From Diaphorobacter limosus (GTDB taxonomy: Bacteria > Pseudomonadota > Gammaproteobacteria > Burkholderiales > Burkholderiaceae_C): a stretch of DNA of 64,000 bases. The position numbers and the translations under genes were made by a program. Position 1 is the stretch's first letter. Each line of letters begins with the position of its first letter. The notes under the pieces were generated by a model that made no database searches, was not told the DNA's origin, and saw nothing but the letters and a program-made list of their open reading frames with translations. Shown piece by piece: positions 4,107 through 53,671 of the stretch. The stretch is from the NCBI RefSeq assembly GCF_033100095.1, contig NZ_CP136921.1, positions 280,501 to 344,500 of the forward strand, in the 5' to 3' direction.

Positions 4107-4326
4107 TGGTAGTCTTTGTGCAAGGGAAATGCAGGCCCTGCGGGCGGCTTATACTGCGACTGATTGTAGCCGAGGGGGTGTCATGACGGCGCCACGCAGC
4201 CGTCCGCCCAGTCGTGCTCTGCACCAGGCAGCGAGCCTCCCCGTGGCCCTATCTGGCTGGCCTTTGCTGGCGTCGTGGTAGGCCGGCCGGCGGTTGCGAT
4301 TCCCACCTGTTTCTGACCTTGATCCC

Positions 4327-5703
4327 ATGAGTTTGCGCATCTACAACACGCTGACGCGTGCCTTGGAGCATTTCTCTCCGCTCGAACCCGGCCATGTGCG
4401 CATGTATGTCTGCGGCATGACGGTGTACGACCTGTGCCACCTGGGTCATGCGCGCTCGATGATCGCCTTTGACGTGGTGCAGCGCTGGCTGCGCGCCTCG
4501 GGCCTGGCCGTGACCTATGTGCGCAACATCACCGACATCGACGACAAGATCATCCGCCGCGCGGTGGAAAACGGCGAGACCATACGCAGCCTGACGGACC
4601 GCATGATCGACGCCCTGCACCAGGACGCCGACGCCCTGGGGATCGAGCGCCCCACGCACGAGCCGCGCGCCACCGAATACGTGCCGCAGATGCTGGGCCT
4701 GATCCAGCGCCTTGAGGACAAGGGCCTGGCCTACCGGGCAGGCAGCGGCGATGTGAACTACGCGGTGCGCAAGTTCCCGCGCTACGGCCGGCTGTCGGGC
4801 AAGTCGCTCGACGAGCTGAATGCTGGCGAGCGCGTGGCGGTGCAGGACGGTAAGCACGATCCGCTTGATTTCGTGCTCTGGAAGAGCGCCAAGCCCGAGG
4901 AGCCGGCCGAGGTGAAATGGGCCAGCGCCTACGGCGAGGGCCGGCCCGGCTGGCATATCGAGTGCTCGGCCATGGGCTGCGCGCTGCTGGGCGAGAGCTT
5001 TGACATCCACGGCGGCGGTGCCGACCTTGCTTTTCCGCACCACGAGAACGAGATCGCCCAGAGCGAGGGCGCCACGGGCAAGCCGTTTGCGCAGCTGTGG
5101 ATGCACAACGGTTTCATCAACGTGGACAACGAGAAGATGTCCAAGAGCCTGGGCAACTTCTTCACCATCCGCGACGTGCTCAAGGAGTACGACGCCGAAA
5201 CCGTGCGCTTCTTCGTCGTGCGCAGCCACTACCGCAGCCCGCTGAACTACAGCGACCTGCATCTGGACGACGCGCGCGCCGCGCTCAAGCGCCTGTACAC
5301 GGCGTTGTCGCTGGTGGCGCCCCAGCCGGTCGTAATCGACTGGGCCCAGCCGCATGCCGCGCGTTTCAAGGCGGCCATGGACGAGGACTTCGGCACGCCC
5401 GAGGCCGTGGCCGTGCTGTTCGAGCTGGCCGGCGAGGTCAACCGCGGCAAGTCGCCCGAGGTTGCCGGCCTGCTGAAGGCACTCGGCGCCCATCTGGGCC
5501 TGCTGCAGGACGACCCCGAGGCCTTTCTGAAGGCCGGCGCGGGCCTGGATGCCGCCGCCATCGAGGCGCAGATCGCCGCGCGCGCGGCCGCCAAGGCGGC
5601 GAAGAACTTCGCCGAGGCCGATCGCATCAGGGGCGAGCTGCTGGCCCAGGGCATCGTGCTCAAGGACTCGGCCGCGGGCACGACCTGGGAGGCCGCGCAG
5701 TAA
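4327..5703 (+). CDS. cysS: cysteinyl-tRNA synthetase
   Basis: Class I aminoacyl-tRNA synthetase that charges tRNA-Cys. The 458-aa length is normal for the family. The zinc-binding Cys29, the HIGH-type motif HLGHARS (38-44), the WHIECSAM block and KMSKS (270-274) are all visible. The start is [11 protein letters not shown]. The frame is open 11 codons further upstream, but conservation begins at MSLRIY. It is divergent from the TPR gene across a 220-bp spacer. The stop is followed within 10 bp by a dispersed-repeat copy that runs into the next gene. Confidence 0.97.
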
Positions 5704-46091: not shown

Positions 46092-46475
46092 ATGATTGAC
46101 GCCCTGATATCCGGCAAGCTGCACGCCCACCCTGAGCAGCGCACCAGCAAGACCGGTAAAACCTATGCCACGGCCAAGATGACGGCCGCCGGTGGCGACG
46201 GCCAAAGCCTGTTCGTCAACTGCATTGCCTTCGACGAGGCGTCGGTGGAAGCGCTGCTGGCGCTGGTTGCCGGGGACAGCTTGGCCGTGGCCGGCAGCAT
46301 CACCCCCAAGGTCTGGACCGATCGCGAGGGCCAACACCGCCCGGCGCTGGACATGGTGGTCGCGCGCGTGCTGACCGCCTACCACGTCACGCACAAGCGC
46401 CGTGCCATGCAGCAAAGCGCCGCTCCACAGGCGCGGCAGCAGTCCATGGACGATGGCGAGCCACTGGACTTCTGA
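46092..46475 (+). CDS. SSB-like OB-fold protein, chromosomal copy
   Basis: 127-aa protein resembling a short single-stranded DNA-binding protein. MIDALISGKL, RTSKTGKTYATAKM, LFVNCIAFDE and GSITPKVWTD give OB-fold strand spacing, and the C-terminus MDDGEPLDF recalls the acidic SSB tip that recruits partners. About two thirds identical (84 of 127 by hand count) to the gene at 52639-53022 inside the adjacent integrative element. It lies 25 bp after the methyltransferase gene and is followed by a terminator at the element border. Confidence 0.75.
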   Translation: MIDALISGKLHAHPEQRTSKTGKTYATAKMTAAGGDGQSLFVNCIAFDEASVEALLALVAGDSLAVAGSITPKVWTDREGQHRPALDMVVARVLTAYHVTHKRRAMQQSAAPQARQQSMDDGEPLDF

Positions 46476-46528: not shown

Positions 46529-46579
46529 TTGGTGCCGGAGACATGAATCGAACACGCGACCTTCTCATTACGAATGAGC
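46529..46579 (+). repeat. attL (51-bp direct repeat of tRNA-Thr 3' end)
   Basis: Identical to 53595-53645. It begins TTGGTGCCGGAGACATGAAT and ends CATTACGAATGAGC. It covers the tRNA from CCA back through the T-arm to the anticodon stem, and diverges immediately outside (GGATAC versus TGCTCT). Confidence 0.92.
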
Positions 46580-46619
46580 GGATACTACTATTCGGCACTG
46601 TTGATTGATGCTGATAGAA

Positions 46620-46751
46620 TCAATATAAATCAACACGTTATCCGTGTTTTGCTGGACAAAAAAACAGGTGGCGTGTTGATTGATATTCCCCAAAATTGGG
46701 GATTTTTGGCTACACAGTGGCTACACGGTGGCTACACCGTGGCTACACGCG
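46620..46751 (+). promoter_or_regulatory. int control region with four 11-bp arm-type repeats
   Basis: Four head-to-tail copies of GGCTACACNGT start at 46708, 46719, 46730 and 46741, exactly 11 bp apart. Two more occur near the right end (53519, 53530). Upstream are an inverted pair ATCAACACG/CGTGTTGAT (46629-46637, 46672-46680) and a hairpin CCCCAA-AA-TTGGGG followed by Ts (46688-46707). The repeats fit integrase arm sites and the dyads fit operators; both are inference. Confidence 0.65.
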
Positions 46752-46771
46752 ATGACAAAAGGGCATCAATC

Positions 46772-48130
46772 ATGGTTCGACCACGCAAGACCGATGTACC
46801 CGACACCACCAGGGTCATAGACCTGACCGCCGGGGCTATCGAGCGCCTGACCTGCCGCACCGACTCCAAGGCTCAGGCGTTCCTGCGCGACGCAAAGGCA
46901 CCGGGGCTGCGCGTGCGCGTGACCAACACCGGGCACAAGGCGTTCGTCTTTGAAGCCAAGCTGAACCGGCAAACCATCCGCCGCACCATAGGCGACGTGC
47001 GCGCCTGGACGATTGAGCAGGCGCGCACCGAAGCCCGACGCCTGGCCGTGCTGATTGACGCGGGCATCAACCCGAACGAGCAGGAGCGCCAGCAACAGGC
47101 CGCCGCCGCCGCAGAACAGGCCGCAGCCGCTGCCCAGGCCGTGACCGTGGGCGCGATATGGCCGCTGTACCTGGAAAACGGCAAGCCCAAGCGCAAAGAG
47201 GCATGGAAGCCGCGCTACCGTGCCGACCTGGAGGCCATGGCAGCCCCAGGGGGCGAACCCAAGAAGCGAGGGCAGGGCGTGACAAGGCCGGGGCCGCTGC
47301 ATCCCCTGCTGGCGCTGCCCCTGGCTGGCGTGACCGAGGATGCATTGCAAGTCTGGTTTGAGCGCGAAGCCCAGGCAGGCAGGCACCAAGCAACCCGCGC
47401 CCTGATGATGTTCCGTGGGTTCCTGCGCTGGTGTGCTTCGCGCCCGGAGTACCGCGCCCTGACCGACCGCGATGCGGGCAAGGCGCCCGCCATCGTGGAG
47501 AACCTGGCCCCCAGCACCACGCGCCGCACGGATTGCCTTGAGGCTGCCCAGGTGGCCGCATGGTGGCAGTGCGTGGACGAGCTGGGCAACCGCACCGCAA
47601 GCGCTTATCTGCGCGCCCTGCTGCTGACCGGGGCACGCCGGGAGGAAGTGGCCGCCCTGACCTGGGCGAACGTGGATTTTCAGTGGCGCAAGCTGACCAT
47701 TGCCGACAAGGCCAGCGATTCCCGAACCATCCCGCTGTCGCCCTACCTGGCGCAACTGCTGGCAACGCTGCCCAGGCAAGGCCCGTTCGTGTTTGCCAGC
47801 ACGGGCAAGGCAGGGCGCATTACCGACGCCCGCGCAAGCCATGCCACGGCATTGCAAAGGGCGGGAATTGGACACCTGACGTTCCACGGGTTGCGCCGTT
47901 CGTTTTCGCTGCTGGGCGAGGCCGCCGGGGCACCTGCTGGGGCCATCGCGCAAATCATGGGCCATCGCCCAAGCGCCGTTGCCGAGGGCTACCGCCCGCG
48001 CAGCATTGATGCCCTGCGCCCATACAGCGCGCAAATCGAGGCCCATATCCTGGCGCTGGCCGGTGTGCAGCTGGATGCCCAGGCAGAACCCGGCAAGCTG
48101 CGCATTGTTGCCCATGGCAATAGCCAATAA
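46772..48130 (+). CDS. int: tyrosine recombinase / integrase (P4-like, DUF4102-type N-terminus)
   Basis: 452-aa integrase. The N-terminal DNA-binding part (VIDLTAGAIERL, APGLRVRVTNTGHKAFVFEAKL, RTIGDVRAWTIEQARTEARRL) is typical of P4-type island integrases. The catalytic residues are visible: LLLTGARREEVAAL (first Arg), HGLRRSF (His-x-x-Arg), MGHRPSAVAEGYRP (His and likely Tyr). I chose ATG at 46772 (MVRPRKTDVPD); the open frame upstream runs through attL and the arm repeats. It acts on the 51-bp tRNA-Thr repeats. Confidence 0.92.
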   Translation: MVRPRKTDVPDTTRVIDLTAGAIERLTCRTDSKAQAFLRDAKAPGLRVRVTNTGHKAFVFEAKLNRQTIRRTIGDVRAWTIEQARTEARRLAVLIDAGINPNEQERQQQAAAAAEQAAAAAQAVTVGAIWPLYLENGKPKRKEAWKPRYRADLEAMAAPGGEPKKRGQGVTRPGPLHPLLALPLAGVTEDALQVWFEREAQAGRHQATRALMMFRGFLRWCASRPEYRALTDRDAGKAPAIVENLAPSTTRRTDCLEAAQVAAWWQCVDELGNRTASAYLRALLLTGARREEVAALTWANVDFQWRKLTIADKASDSRTIPLSPYLAQLLATLPRQGPFVFASTGKAGRITDARASHATALQRAGIGHLTFHGLRRSFSLLGEAAGAPAGAIAQIMGHRPSAVAEGYRPRSIDALRPYSAQIEAHILALAGVQLDAQAEPGKLRIVAHGNSQ

Positions 48131-48150: not shown

Positions 48151-48429
48151 ATGAACATCACGTTCGACCCGGACAAGGATGAAGCGAACCGGGCAAAGCA
48201 TGGCGTTTCATTGCGGGATGCCGTGGGCTTTGAATGGGAAACCGCCGTGGTGTGGCCTGACAAGCGCCGGGACTATGGCGAGCCCCGCATGGTGGCACTG
48301 GGCTATATCGGCCTGCGCATCATGGCCGTGGTGTTTGTTGACCGCCCGCCCGAGCAGCCGACCGAGCGCCGAATCATCAGCTTGCGCAAAGCCAACAACC
48401 GAGAGGTGCAACGCTATGCCGAAACTTAA
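48151..48429 (+). CDS. brnT: BrnT-family ribonuclease toxin
   Basis: 92-aa type II toxin (DUF497, RelE-like fold). ITFDPDKDEANRAKHGVSLRDA and RIISLRKANNREVQRY are the family signature. It is 20 bp after int; TACAAT at 48138-48143 could be a -10 that places the transcription start at or next to the ATG. It overlaps brnA by 14 bp, in the usual toxin-first order. It would stabilise the element by killing or arresting cells that lose it. Confidence 0.9.
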   Translation: MNITFDPDKDEANRAKHGVSLRDAVGFEWETAVVWPDKRRDYGEPRMVALGYIGLRIMAVVFVDRPPEQPTERRIISLRKANNREVQRYAET

Positions 48430-48697
48430 AGCCGGAACCATCATGCCGACGCCTGCCGAGGATGCAGCCATTACCGCCGCTGCGCTGGCAGACCCTGACG
48501 CCATGCCATTCACCGATGCCGAATGGGAACAGGCAAAACCGCTGGCACGCCGGGGCCGCCCGCTGGGCAGTGGCACAAAAGCCCAGGTGACCCTACGCCT
48601 TGACGTGGAGGTGCTGGAGCGGTTCAGGGCAACCGGCGATGGCTGGCAAACCCGCATCAATGCCGCTTTGAAAGACTGGTTGCACGCGCACGCCTGA
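48416..48697 (+). CDS. brnA: BrnA-family antitoxin
   Basis: 93-aa antitoxin with a C-terminal ribbon-helix-helix DNA-binding domain (KAQVTLRLDVEVLERF, GDGWQTRINAALKDWL). The N-terminal half is Ala/Asp-rich and should wrap around BrnT. The BrnTA complex normally represses its own promoter. The start MPKLKAGTIMP lies within the toxin gene. Confidence 0.9.
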   Translation: MPKLKAGTIMPTPAEDAAITAAALADPDAMPFTDAEWEQAKPLARRGRPLGSGTKAQVTLRLDVEVLERFRATGDGWQTRINAALKDWLHAHA

Positions 48698-48802
48698 CAG
48701 TTTCGCCCCAGCTAGGCAGGGCTGCAATCCTGCTGAAAAGCCAGTTCCTCCCGCTGGCCTGCTGGGGCACCTATCGAGGGAGTTGCAGCCGGGAGGGTTG
48801 CC

Positions 48803-50725: not shown

Positions 50726-51315
50726 TGAACGCCGATACCGACCGCGCCCGCGATGCGCTGCGAGCCATCCCGCCCGACTGCGACCGCGAAACGTGGGTGG
50801 CGAATGAATTCGGCGTGGACACCACCCAGGCGCAAGACCTGAACGGGGCTGCACTGGATGAATGGCTTGTGCAGGCTGAGGACGAGTTGACCGCGCGCTT
50901 GATGGAGGGCAGCACGGACGGGGCGAATGCAAGCACAGCCCCCGCAGCGCCAGGGCAAGACGCCGCCAAGCTGGTAGCAATGCAGTCCTTGGGCCTGGTG
51001 GCGCGCATCCTGTTGCGGCTTCACGCCGAACGCCATCGCCTGGCCGCCAATTGGGCCAATGCAGACATCGAGACAGGCATTGCAATTGACCTGGCCGCCG
51101 CTGAGGTGCAGCGCCTGCGCGCCAGTCCGCCCGATGACCTGCAAGACCTTGAGGTGAGCTGGTATCGCGTGGCCGCCGTGGTGACGCTGGCAAGCCGCAG
51201 CTACAGCAAGCCCAGTTCGTTCTATGGCCGCGTGCTGGCTGGCCTGACTGCGCAAATGGAGAACCTGCCCGAGTTGTGGGAACACGTCGGAATGGAGGGC
51301 GAGCATGGGACGTGA
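50725..51315 (+). CDS. island protein with an N-terminal PriCT-2-like motif
   Basis: 196-aa protein, unnamed. The start follows GGAGG and overlaps the previous stop (TGATG). ARDALRAIPPDCDRETWVAN recalls the PriCT-2 segment found between primase and helicase parts of plasmid and phage primases, but no primase or helicase motif follows. The remainder is helical (ARILLRLHAERHRLAANWANAD, VSWYRVAAVVTLASRSY). It may be a reduced primase-associated protein or a coincidental match. Confidence 0.45.
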   Translation: MNADTDRARDALRAIPPDCDRETWVANEFGVDTTQAQDLNGAALDEWLVQAEDELTARLMEGSTDGANASTAPAAPGQDAAKLVAMQSLGLVARILLRLHAERHRLAANWANADIETGIAIDLAAAEVQRLRASPPDDLQDLEVSWYRVAAVVTLASRSYSKPSSFYGRVLAGLTAQMENLPELWEHVGMEGEHGT

Positions 51316-51679
51316 CTACCGCAAGAAGGGCGATGCAGGCCGCGATGCAGGGGGTTTTGTGGCCCTGCCGTGGGTCGTTCTCGACAGCGAGGCGTACATG
51401 GGCCTGGGCCATGCTGCGCGCTCGTTGCTGCTGGAGCTGGCGCGGCAACTGCGCCCGGATAACAACGGCAGGTTGCTTGCCAGCATGAACCACCTGCGCC
51501 CGAGGGGATGGACGTCCTGCGACACCGTGCATCGTGCGAAAAATGAACTGGTGCAATCGGGGCTGGTGTTGGAAGTGGTCAAGGGCGCGCGCCCAAACCG
51601 GGCAAGTCAGTATGCCGTCGCATGGGTGCCGGTTGCCCCTGCTGAGGCAATCCACGATGGAGGGCAGCATGGGACGTGA
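51305..51679 (+). CDS. winged-helix replication-type protein, short paralogue
   Basis: 124-aa protein. MGRDYRKKGDAGRDAGGFVALPWVVLDSEAY, then ARSLLLELARQLRPDNNG and GWTSCDTVHRAKNELVQSGLV, form a winged-helix fold of the type seen in small-replicon initiators. It starts inside the previous gene and ends inside the next, which encodes a longer relative with the same MGRD opening, so the two look like a tandem duplication. Confidence 0.6.
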   Translation: MGRDYRKKGDAGRDAGGFVALPWVVLDSEAYMGLGHAARSLLLELARQLRPDNNGRLLASMNHLRPRGWTSCDTVHRAKNELVQSGLVLEVVKGARPNRASQYAVAWVPVAPAEAIHDGGQHGT

Positions 51680-52619
51680 CCGCTCAAAAAAACACGGGGT
51701 TGCCGTACAGGGCGCATGGTTGCCCATGCCGCTTTCGTTCCTACGTTCCACGGCTTGCGCAGAACTGTCGCCGCACGGTTTGAAGCTGCTGGTTGACGTG
51801 CTGGCACTGCTGGGGCCAAACGCGACGGGAAACGGCGATTTGAGCCTGTCACCGCGCACCATGCGGGCAAGGGGTTGGACAAGCCGCAAGACGCTGCAAA
51901 GCGCCGTTGCCGAGCTGTTGGAGCATGGGTTGCTGGCATTGACCCGGCAAGGGGGCCGCACGGATTGCAGCCTCTTTGCTTGCGCGTTGTTTCCGGTGCA
52001 CTGCGATACCGCCAAGTTAGACCTTGGGGTCGTGGGTAGCTACACCACGCGGGACTGGGCTGCGCACGGCGAGACAGCCCCCAGCGAAGAGCATCCCGCA
52101 ACTTGGCGACGTGCTCGAAAAACAGTTTTGCATGACCCGCCACGGAACAGCAAGGCCGTTTTCGGTTCCGCCACGGAACAGCCCTGCCTAAAAAAGCAGC
52201 AAAAAAAGCCCGAACTGTTCCGCCACGGAACCAAAACCCCTGTTTTGGCCGGTTCTGCTGTTCCGCCACGGGTCACCTTTCTAGATAAGCCATCTACTGC
52301 GCAGCAAAGCGAGCAAGGGCAGGGAAGGGGGAAGGGTGCGCGAGCCGCCAAAAAGACCGGCGAAACCATCGTGGCCCCCACCACCGAAGAACAGCCCAGG
52401 GCCATCCAGACACTGGCCGAACTGTGGGACAAGGTGGGTAGCCGTTCGTGCTGGATGACCCGCATCCCCACCCGCAAGGACACCGCCCGCGCCGCCATGG
52501 CTCAGGCCGTGGCACGCAAGCGATTGAGCCAGCCCACGCCGCCCACCGCAGCCCCGGATGATGATGGATGGGTGCGCACCAGGGACGATGCCCACGACGT
52601 AGGCGCGTGGGACGTGTGA
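51669..52619 (+). CDS. putative replication protein (winged helix), contains candidate origin
   Basis: 316-aa protein. The N-terminal 130 residues (MGRDRSKKHGVAVQGAWLPM, ELSPHGLKLLVDVLALLG, GWTSRKTLQSAVAELLEHGLL) are the same winged-helix fold as the preceding gene. A long low-complexity middle (about 150-235) is encoded by DNA carrying four 15-bp palindromes. The C-terminal quarter (IQTLAELWDKVGSRSCWMTRIPTRK) is basic and helical. Placement of repeats inside the gene and the SSB gene next to it suggest an initiator that binds its own coding region; no catalytic motif is visible, so host enzymes would supply polymerase and helicase. Confidence 0.55.
   Translation: MGRDRSKKHGVAVQGAWLPMPLSFLRSTACAELSPHGLKLLVDVLALLGPNATGNGDLSLSPRTMRARGWTSRKTLQSAVAELLEHGLLALTRQGGRTDCSLFACALFPVHCDTAKLDLGVVGSYTTRDWAAHGETAPSEEHPATWRRARKTVLHDPPRNSKAVFGSATEQPCLKKQQKKPELFRHGTKTPVLAGSAVPPRVTFLDKPSTAQQSEQGQGRGKGARAAKKTGETIVAPTTEEQPRAIQTLAELWDKVGSRSCWMTRIPTRKDTARAAMAQAVARKRLSQPTPPTAAPDDDGWVRTRDDAHDVGAWDV
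52134..52274 (+). other. candidate replication origin: four 15-bp palindromic iterons, A-rich tract and hairpin
   Basis: GTTCCGCCACGGAAC is perfect at 52165-52179 and 52217-52231, with two-mismatch copies at 52134-52148 (GACCCGCCACGGAAC) and 52260-52274 (GTTCCGCCACGGGTC). It is an inverted repeat GTTCCG-n3-CGGAAC. Between copies 2 and 3 is an A-rich stretch (52190-52207); between 3 and 4 a hairpin CCAAAAC-CCCT-GTTTTGG (52231-52248). The copies fall in different reading frames of the host gene, so the DNA, not the protein, is conserved. Confidence 0.6.
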
Positions 52620-52638: not shown

Positions 52639-53022
52639 ATGATTGACGCCCTGATTGCTGGCAAGCTGTACGGCCAGCCTGCCGAGCGCACCAGCAAGAC
52701 CGGCAAGCCCTTCGCTGTGGCAAAGGTGCGCGCCGCAGCCGGGGATGGTGAAAGCCTGTTCGTGAACGTCATTGCCTTTGACGCTGGCCCCTGTGCTGCC
52801 CTGCTGGCGCTGGCCGATGGTGACAGCGTGGCCCTGGCCGGGAGCATTACGCCCAAGGTGTGGACGGACAAGCAGGGCAACAGCCGCCCCAGCCTGGATA
52901 TGGTGGCCGCTCAGGTACTGACCCCGTACCACGTCCAACGCAAGCGCCGCGCCATGCAGCCCCAGGCCGCGCAGCATGGGGAGCATCCCCCATTGGACGA
53001 TGGCGAGCCGCTGGACTTTTGA
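52639..53022 (+). CDS. SSB-like OB-fold protein, element-encoded copy
   Basis: 127-aa protein, the same length as the chromosomal homologue at 46092-46475 and about two thirds identical. MIDALIAGKLYG, RTSKTGKPFAVAKV, LFVNVIAFDA, GSITPKVWTD and YHVQRKRRAMQ are shared, as is the acidic tail LDDGEPLDF. A good GGAGAA site precedes it. It presumably coats single-stranded DNA when the element replicates, and the shared tail would let it use the host's SSB partners. Confidence 0.75.
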   Translation: MIDALIAGKLYGQPAERTSKTGKPFAVAKVRAAAGDGESLFVNVIAFDAGPCAALLALADGDSVALAGSITPKVWTDKQGNSRPSLDMVAAQVLTPYHVQRKRRAMQPQAAQHGEHPPLDDGEPLDF

Positions 53023-53594: not shown

Positions 53595-53645
53595 TTGGTG
53601 CCGGAGACATGAATCGAACACGCGACCTTCTCATTACGAATGAGC
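53595..53645 (+). repeat. attR (51-bp direct repeat within tRNA-Thr)
   Basis: Exact copy of 46529-46579. The intact tRNA gene continues to the right, so the element sits on the 3' side of the tRNA and integration preserved it. Confidence 0.92.
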
Positions 53646-53671
53646 TGCTCTACCGACTGAGCTACACCGGC
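53596..53671 (-). tRNA. tRNA-Thr(CGU)
   Basis: A 76-nt tRNA with encoded CCA. D-arm AGCTCAGTCGGTAGAGC, anticodon arm CTCAT-TCGTAAT-GAG-type with anticodon CGT (reads ACG), T-loop TTCGATT. The acceptor pairs GCCGG/CCGGC, but position 6-67 is a U-U mismatch. The same 3' part is present at attL, so the mismatch is not caused by the crossover. Confidence 0.94.

Follow-up and report, generated by a model that had tools for sequence, protein, structure and literature searches.

The 64,000-nucleotide stretch of the Diaphorobacter limosus genome analysed here (NZ_CP136921.1, positions 280,501 to 344,500; hereafter, the window) contains an integrated element of 7.1 kb that is bounded by identical 51-bp repeats, the right one of which lies within a tRNA-Thr gene. 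We assign a probability of roughly 0.85 to the conclusion that positions 52118-52295 of the window are the replication origin of this element and that the protein encoded at 51669..52619 (+ strand) is its initiator, which would bind the origin and start replication there. The putative initiator (316 amino acids, aa) consists of a winged-helix N-terminal domain, a linker encoded by an array of palindromic sites (iterons), and a C-terminal part. An initiator with an embedded origin had been proposed in a preliminary description of this DNA; the kinship of the protein to known initiators, conservation at the DNA level and, in one pair of relatives, concerted change of the DNA-binding helix and the iterons all support this proposal, in which binding itself is presumed. 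Because the same cassette is found with other landing sites in mobile elements of other bacteria, the gene together with its sites is very probably an interchangeable replication origin.

The four reported copies of GTTCCG-n3-CGGAAC are indeed present in the window, starting at 52134, 52165, 52217 and 52260, with two, zero, zero and two mismatches, respectively. In the pattern scan, iterons 2 (52165..52179) and 3 (52217..52231) are perfect dyads, iteron 1 (52134..52148; GACCCG CCA CGGAAC) has a degenerate left arm and iteron 4 (52260..52274; GTTCCG CCA CGGGTC) a degenerate right arm; the spacer CCA is common to all four. The array also includes the A-rich tract noted earlier, with runs of A at 52190-52195 and at 52201-52207. 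The hairpin with a 7-bp stem (CCAAAAC-CCCT-GTTTTGG, 52231..52248) follows between iterons 3 and 4, and its A-run, CCCC and T-run are largely kept in the alignment of relatives. With at most two mismatches, GTTCCGNNNCGGAAC has five matches in the 64-kb window, four of which are the reported sites, spanning 141 bp; at three mismatches, there are 24 matches against 33 expected, that is, no excess, so that the signal resides in the clustering and in the perfect copies. No further perfect copy exists in the 4,099,615-base genome, where the backward control pattern occurs once. What places the window palindromes beyond chance is that close relatives have sites at the same place and with the same spacing.

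A search with the window protein as the single query yielded 102 homologues and matched 37 of the 398 family genomes; there was no match in phages, in the genome_contigs set or in plasmids, and the genome_contigs matches required an alignment as the query. We compared 18 close loci, namely, 14 from genomes or metagenome-assembled genomes, two viral contigs, the locus L005 and the window itself, with the near-identical L039 and L047 both counted and L006 not among them; the hosts include Extensimonas, Zoogloeaceae, Rhodoferax, Nitrotoga, Thauera, Aromatoleum, Candidimonas, Denitromonas, Methylophilus and others. The dyads are spaced at 31/52/43 bp in 15 of the 18 loci when a fit allows 2 bp either way, and exactly so in 12 of the 18 under an unconstrained strict scan. 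The exceptions are L043 (31/53/43), L045 (30/52/43) and the diverged L046, in which the strict scan places the array at 41/52/42, with approximately one extra helical turn. We looked among these relatives for the same gene without palindromes; all 18 loci have at least two dyads with shared half-sites, and the strict scan finds four in 13 loci, three in four and two in one.

The arms of these iterons read GTTCCG, GTCCCG or GTACCG, with a matching right arm. At the third pair of site 2, T-A occurs in five loci, C-G in ten and A-T in one, with a single mismatch among the 17 loci counted (L046 was left out), and the dyad is perfect at site 2 in 15 and at site 3 in 12 of the 17. Sites 1 and 4 have degenerate outer arms across the close loci, and the spacer is usually CCA, with CCC, GGG, TGG, CTG, CAG and CCG found as well. 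In an ungapped alignment of 14 loci (L043, L045, L046 and L047 are displayed but not counted in the consensus), conservation begins at the A-tract leader (AAAAAC..., 52118..52133) and ends abruptly after CCATC. The cis-element is thus about 180 bp long and sharply bounded, and comprises four helically phased dyads and a terminal block, CACCTWTNTAGATNNGCCATCT; in the window, this block, CACCTTTCTAGATAAGCCATCT, abuts iteron 4 and occupies 52274..52295, immediately before the sharp end of conservation.

The reading frame remains open through site 4 in seven of the 18 close loci, including the window, and stops before site 4 in the other 11, where the array is still present; the stop precedes site 1 in L042 and falls inside site 1 in L046. 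Because the array outlives the reading frame, selection acts on the DNA. The preliminary description had drawn the same conclusion from the copies lying in different reading frames; their frames relative to the gene are 0, 1, 2 and 0, so the frames do differ across the array, except that copies 1 and 4 share one, and it is the retention of palindromes past stop codons in the relatives that bears the conclusion out. In L005, similarity to the linker protein picks up again in another frame, and a frame shift instead of true termination is possible in some loci; either way, it is the DNA spacing that is kept, not the protein. The palindromes could also be coding-sequence or RNA-hairpin features, not protein-binding DNA, given that those in the window lie within an open reading frame (ORF) and that each dyad could form a short hairpin. 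This reading is very improbable: palindromes persist after the end of the frame not only in the 11 close loci but also in 37 of the 60 array-bearing loci of the wider family described below, where a stop codon precedes the last site; the sites of an element vary their half-sites together, something that a hairpin in RNA does not require; the spacing is helically quantised; and the only Rfam matches within the element are the tRNA and the int-alpA motif. With sites that outlive the frame and no Rfam family over the array, the coding-only and RNA explanations were rejected.

Arrays built from different half-sites, such as TACACCG, TGTTCCG, TGTACCG, TACTACG and TGGACCG (L006 and L089 were left out of the underlying alignment), are carried by a second subfamily (P0032 type) and by more distant winged-helix relatives from order- and class-wide genome samples. 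In most of the distant relatives, the half-sites differ from those of the window but are shared within each array and are accompanied by a similar block. After removal of duplicate and short loci, 60 of the 92 distinct loci contain at least three dyads with a common half-site, compared with 3 of 92 control stretches (taken upstream of the gene, or downstream if the contig starts at the gene) and 1 of 92 shuffles. Adjacent spacings of up to 60 bp cluster at 22-24, 30-37, 41-46 and 52-56 bp; when each architecture was counted once, none of 5000 random sets was as periodic, and with unique values alone the periodicity is weak, 220 of 5000 random sets being as good. Integrases are present in all nine flanks tested. 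One match in one of the plasmid searches, on a plasmid of 569 kb, is flanked by an integrase gene and a phage capsid gene. In L112 (PP003913.1), the gene that follows the initiator (4221-4826), annotated as a DNA primase, takes its first codons from the iteron array and the block, the frame running through the block as it does in the window. No title among the matches listed in our literature searches describes this cassette.

Across the wider family, the last iteron is followed by a shared block, TNTAGANNNRCCATCT or the related CACCTTTATAGATNTACCAT. With at most one mismatch to one of seven patterns, the block occurs in 65 of 91 loci (L101 was left out), compared with three controls and six shuffles, a count that is descriptive because the patterns were read off the same loci; a DNA-only scan of viral contigs therefore served as the independent test. 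When three block patterns alone were run against 2.9 million viral contigs, 12 stretches were found, 10 of them new, and in nine of the ten new contigs a relative of the winged-helix protein is encoded just upstream (E from 2.1e-9 to 3.4e-53 in per-contig searches), with repeats abutting the block. The block was thus predictive of the cassette. The weakest of the nine, in both the protein match and the repeats, is L120; the tenth, the AT-rich contig L121, has no protein relative and only A/T-rich repeats. Repeat counts alone are not decisive here: L121 scores three with its A/T repeats, and single control tiles reach three or four in L115, L116 and L120.

Profile and fold comparisons show the protein family to be kin to replication initiators of plasmids and phages. 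A profile of the winged helix-turn-helix domain had four matches in the PDB at E up to 10, all of them RepA_N-type initiators (best E 6.7e-4). The model of the window protein is mostly of low confidence (mean pLDDT, the predicted local distance difference test score, 62.5; middling Z of 7.6) and had no row at E 0.001 in a viral structure library; the compact relative L091 was modelled in its place, and the top six Foldseek rows were the same RepA_N initiators (probability 0.98-0.99, E 0.006-0.021). Among 64 members compared with PHROGs (set A4: 63 of 82 references plus the window protein, 10 loci having been left out of the reference list), 17 matched phrog_678, 'replication initiation O-like' (E 0.01 or better), 15 phrog_270, 'replication initiation protein', and 14 phrog_186, 'DnaD-like helicase loader'. 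The window protein itself had no Pfam or PHROG match at E 0.1, NCBIfam gave a single unrelated match among the 64 members, and neither Pfam nor NCBIfam yielded a name for the family. The N-terminal domain is homologous to the winged-helix domain of the RepA_N/DnaD type; because PF06970 (RepA_N) has no match at E 0.1 in any of the 12 family proteins scanned (the window protein, ORF1 and 10 relatives), which distinguishes them from the RepA_N plasmids, we call the family related to RepA_N and do not file it as a member.

A winged-helix protein bound to four phased sites could also be a transcription activator or repressor, with the array as its operator and the block as a promoter. Very different genes, including the capsid genes of L039, have the array immediately ahead of them or in their leader; several winged helix-turn-helix regulators are structural neighbours of the model; and phased sites suit activators, too. 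We nevertheless consider this unlikely, given that it is replication initiators and not regulators that match the family profile and head the fold comparison, that no -35-like hexamer was seen by eye 17 bp upstream of the TAGATA of the block (no promoter scan was run), that the alignment shows strong conservation of the CCATCT that follows the TAGA core, and that the array of the window is inside the gene for the protein. Even less probable, in our assessment, is a partition, packaging or recombination site (a centromere, a cos or pac site, or an accessory site) bound by the winged-helix protein. Centromere-binding proteins of the TubR type, which appear among the rows of the structure search, and some DNA-packaging subunits use winged helices, and homology between the elements breaks at or slightly past the block; against this, no partition ATPase was found among the 10 window ORFs or the 84 downstream ORFs, L039 has small and large terminase genes of its own, and the profile kinship is to initiators. 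The genes downstream of the block, from which these 84 ORFs are drawn (set A5: 83 of 129 candidates plus the window ssb gene), vary widely: L039 has genes for capsid, prohead protease, portal and terminase there, L033 a DUF3987/Toprim gene, L044 an IstB/DnaC-like gene and the window a single-strand-binding protein (SSB) gene, and no Pfam family is matched by more than three ORFs. An integrase lies to the left of the cassette in L039, and L047 resembles L039 over its length; the two are a capsid-encoding satellite or a small phage.

The initiator and its iterons appear to change together and to be exchanged together. The genes of L092 and L097 are near-identical: within residues 1-125, 114 positions are identical and eight differ, and seven of the eight changes fall in residues 60-82, the helix-turn-helix (Fisher 2.6e-5). 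The iteron arms read CACCG in L092 and CTACG in L097, which also has some half-and-half sites; of the remaining DNA, the intervals between sites 1, 2 and 3 are partly different, the interval from site 3 to site 4 is largely unchanged and the block is wholly the same. The helix and the iterons having changed together, the protein is tied to the iterons in this pair. Furthermore, a comparison of the window protein, of subfamily A, with P0032 gives 88% identity over 112 aa for the C-terminal parts and 31% for the N-terminal parts, a mismatch that marks a swap. Beside the initiator gene, a short gene of subfamily B (51305..51679, + strand) encodes a winged-helix, initiator-like protein that matches the N-terminus of P0032 with 73% identity over 109 aa; ACACCG-n5-CGGTGT (taken from L092 and L094; the DNA of P0032 was not seen) is absent from the element at two mismatches, and this gene is likely to be a relic of the previous initiator, with no recognisable iterons of its own. 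The likeliest history of the window element is the replacement of a B origin by an A cassette, and whatever precedes the block within the gene, namely the DNA-binding domain with the iterons, seems to be exchanged as one cassette. In L014 (G035 contig 5, about 622-1764), CCCTATAGGG palindromes lie in the linker of a reading frame whose C-terminal part is 43% identical to that of the window initiator, a different front end on the same tail; the frame contains an HHDExxxHLH motif, which we take to be relaxase-like.

Phage lambda, the analogy drawn in the preliminary description, has four dyad iterons inside the O gene, a winged-helix N-terminal domain in the O protein and an AT-richer segment beside the iterons. 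The analogy is apt as far as four dyad iterons within an initiator gene are concerned; with respect to homology, 17 of the 64 relatives match the O-like PHROG and the window protein does not, and, unlike in lambda, a helicase-loader-like neighbour gene is recognised only in L044. The sharper parallel is the plasmid pSK41, in which four Rep boxes lie centrally in rep and the linker is encoded by the origin; in the chimera pPR9, the N-terminal domain is swapped together with the origin, as described in PMC5703833. Similarly, the array lies in the linker region of the initiator gene in the window, and the iterons lie in or beside the gene in the relatives; RepA_N initiators bind their iterons through the N-terminal domain, as the L092/L097 pair suggests for this family, too; the winged-helix N-terminal domain is related in both profile and fold to those of the RepA_N theta plasmids (pSK41, pTZ2162; 4pql, 4pt7, 5kbj, 4pta). 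Unlike these plasmids, the family is found in proteobacterial integrative elements, its iterons differ between elements, many of its frames stop before or within the array and so lack a C-terminal domain, the part that recruits host primase in RepA_N initiators, and its arrays end in a conserved block that goes unmentioned in the accessible parts of the pSK41 account (PMC5703833). Also, whereas most characterised RepA_N members have inverted repeats converging on a poly-A tract, the spacer in the window is CCA, and A-containing iteron centres are found only in some relatives, such as L112 (GAAAC) and L124.

The satellites of Vibrio cholerae known as PLE (phage-inducible chromosomal island-like elements) encode an initiator of the RepA_N kind, in which the DNA-binding domain and the origin co-vary and are swapped over a retained C-terminus, according to the available text of PMC7145576 and PMC8263062. 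The present family resembles the PLE in both respects, the co-varying and swapped parts of the PLE being a tested precedent, and differs from them in having four phased dyads in or directly behind the initiator gene, together with the terminal block; 4ro3, named as the PLE RepA domain in the same text, is a weaker structural match. Phage-inducible chromosomal islands (PICIs) encode a primase/Rep protein and have an origin 3' of the replication gene, in which an AT-rich region is enclosed by two sets of iterons (PMC6092414), and an integrase with an alpA-type organisation is described, so far as the accessible text extends, for PICI satellites and phage-inducible chromosomal minimalist islands (PICMIs; PMC6092414, PMC10803314). 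The window element shares the integrase and alpA-type organisation with the Gram-negative PICI/PICMI satellites, including an int-alpA RNA; unlike in PICIs, the four iterons are all on one side of the block, and Pfam and PHROGs scans of 10 window ORFs recognised no primase.

On the best reading of these comparisons, an initiator with its origin in cis would work in the manner of pSK41 RepA (PMC5703833, as far as its accessible text goes) or lambda O. The integrase would excise the element; dimers of the winged-helix N-terminal domain would then bind the four dyads on one face of the DNA helix; the resulting nucleoprotein complex would open the DNA, or load it, at or next to the terminal block; and the parts of the replisome would come from the host, from a helper or from genes of the element, such as the downstream SSB gene. 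Because the C-terminal part is missing in many relatives, it can be speculated that the block, not the initiator, does part of the recruiting. It is possible, if somewhat short of probable, that these cassettes represent a large proteobacterial family of minimal origins, with an initiator reduced to a winged helix, four phased dyads with private half-sites, and a shared block that replaces the C-terminal domain by recruiting host or helper machinery and acts as a fixed socket for swapped initiator-iteron plugs. If so, plug-in initiator-iteron modules would yield mutually compatible replicons and a means of escape from origin-directed attack.

Several results weigh against the interpretation of the cassette as an initiator with its origin. 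The gene of L006, whose product is 46% identical to the window protein, has no array (when it was fitted to the 31/52/43 spacing, 76 of 200 shuffles were equally good), and a subfamily-B gene fragment, L104, has neither array nor block; in both, the gene is followed by unrelated sequence. Fewer than three sites were found in 32 of the 92 loci in the strict scan. A column-wise co-variation test across 62 loci did not favour the helix-turn-helix (p 0.66, or 0.20 without family A), its top column being residue 73, in the recognition helix. Foldseek returned no row at E 0.001, and VIA-align gave a Z of 8.2 compared with 7.3 for unrelated rows, which is little margin. The block of the window is modestly AT-rich (0.60 in a 20-bp bin, a value equalled between iterons 2 and 3), and no information came from the GC skew of the element. 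Of the 84 downstream ORFs, a minority are replication-type genes (three SSB, including that of the window, three Toprim_3, one DUF3987 and one IstB/DnaC-like), and the plasmid searches found no plasmid maintained by the cassette.

If the origin assignment holds, a hypothetical protein of many proteobacterial mobile elements becomes a probable initiator with a mapped origin, and dozens of natural initiator-iteron pairs become available for reading the DNA-recognition code, with one short conserved block isolated as a separate part of the cassette. How RepA_N-type initiators bring in the replication machinery is named as an open point in the available text of the PLE paper (PMC7145576), and direct recruitment of the replisome by the block, should it occur, would bear on that point.

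The element meets its flanks at attL (46529..46579) and attR (53595..53645), which are 100% identical over 51 bp in a blastn comparison of the two flanks, the integration target being the tRNA-Thr (CGT) gene predicted by ARAGORN at 53596..53671 (- strand). The element thus has an integrase and direct repeats that bound it at a tRNA gene, as an integrative element does. The tyrosine integrase gene (46574..48130, + strand; PF00589, E 9.3e-16; PF13356, E 1.4e-12) is followed by a BrnT toxin gene (PF04365, E 7.9e-22) and another ORF, which presumably encodes a BrnA-like antitoxin, the two together occupying 48151-48697, and then by the int-alpA RNA motif (48705..48780, + strand; RF02996, scoring 48.6 bits where the gathering score is 35.8). 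The ssb gene (52639..53022, + strand; PF00436, E 2.6e-6) starts 19 bp after the stop codon of the initiator gene. No structural or conjugation genes were recognised among the 10 window ORFs with Pfam and PHROGs.

Just outside attL, a second SSB-like gene (46092-46475) has 76% DNA identity to the ssb gene of the element and probably marks where an older element at this tRNA site had its right end. In Extensimonas, a related element with the cassette and the DUF3987/Toprim gene (L033, about 4.7-12.9 kb) seems, by eye, to end beside the same neighbour gene as the window element, a gene that we take to be fbp-like; this shared neighbour suggests repeated use of one integration site.
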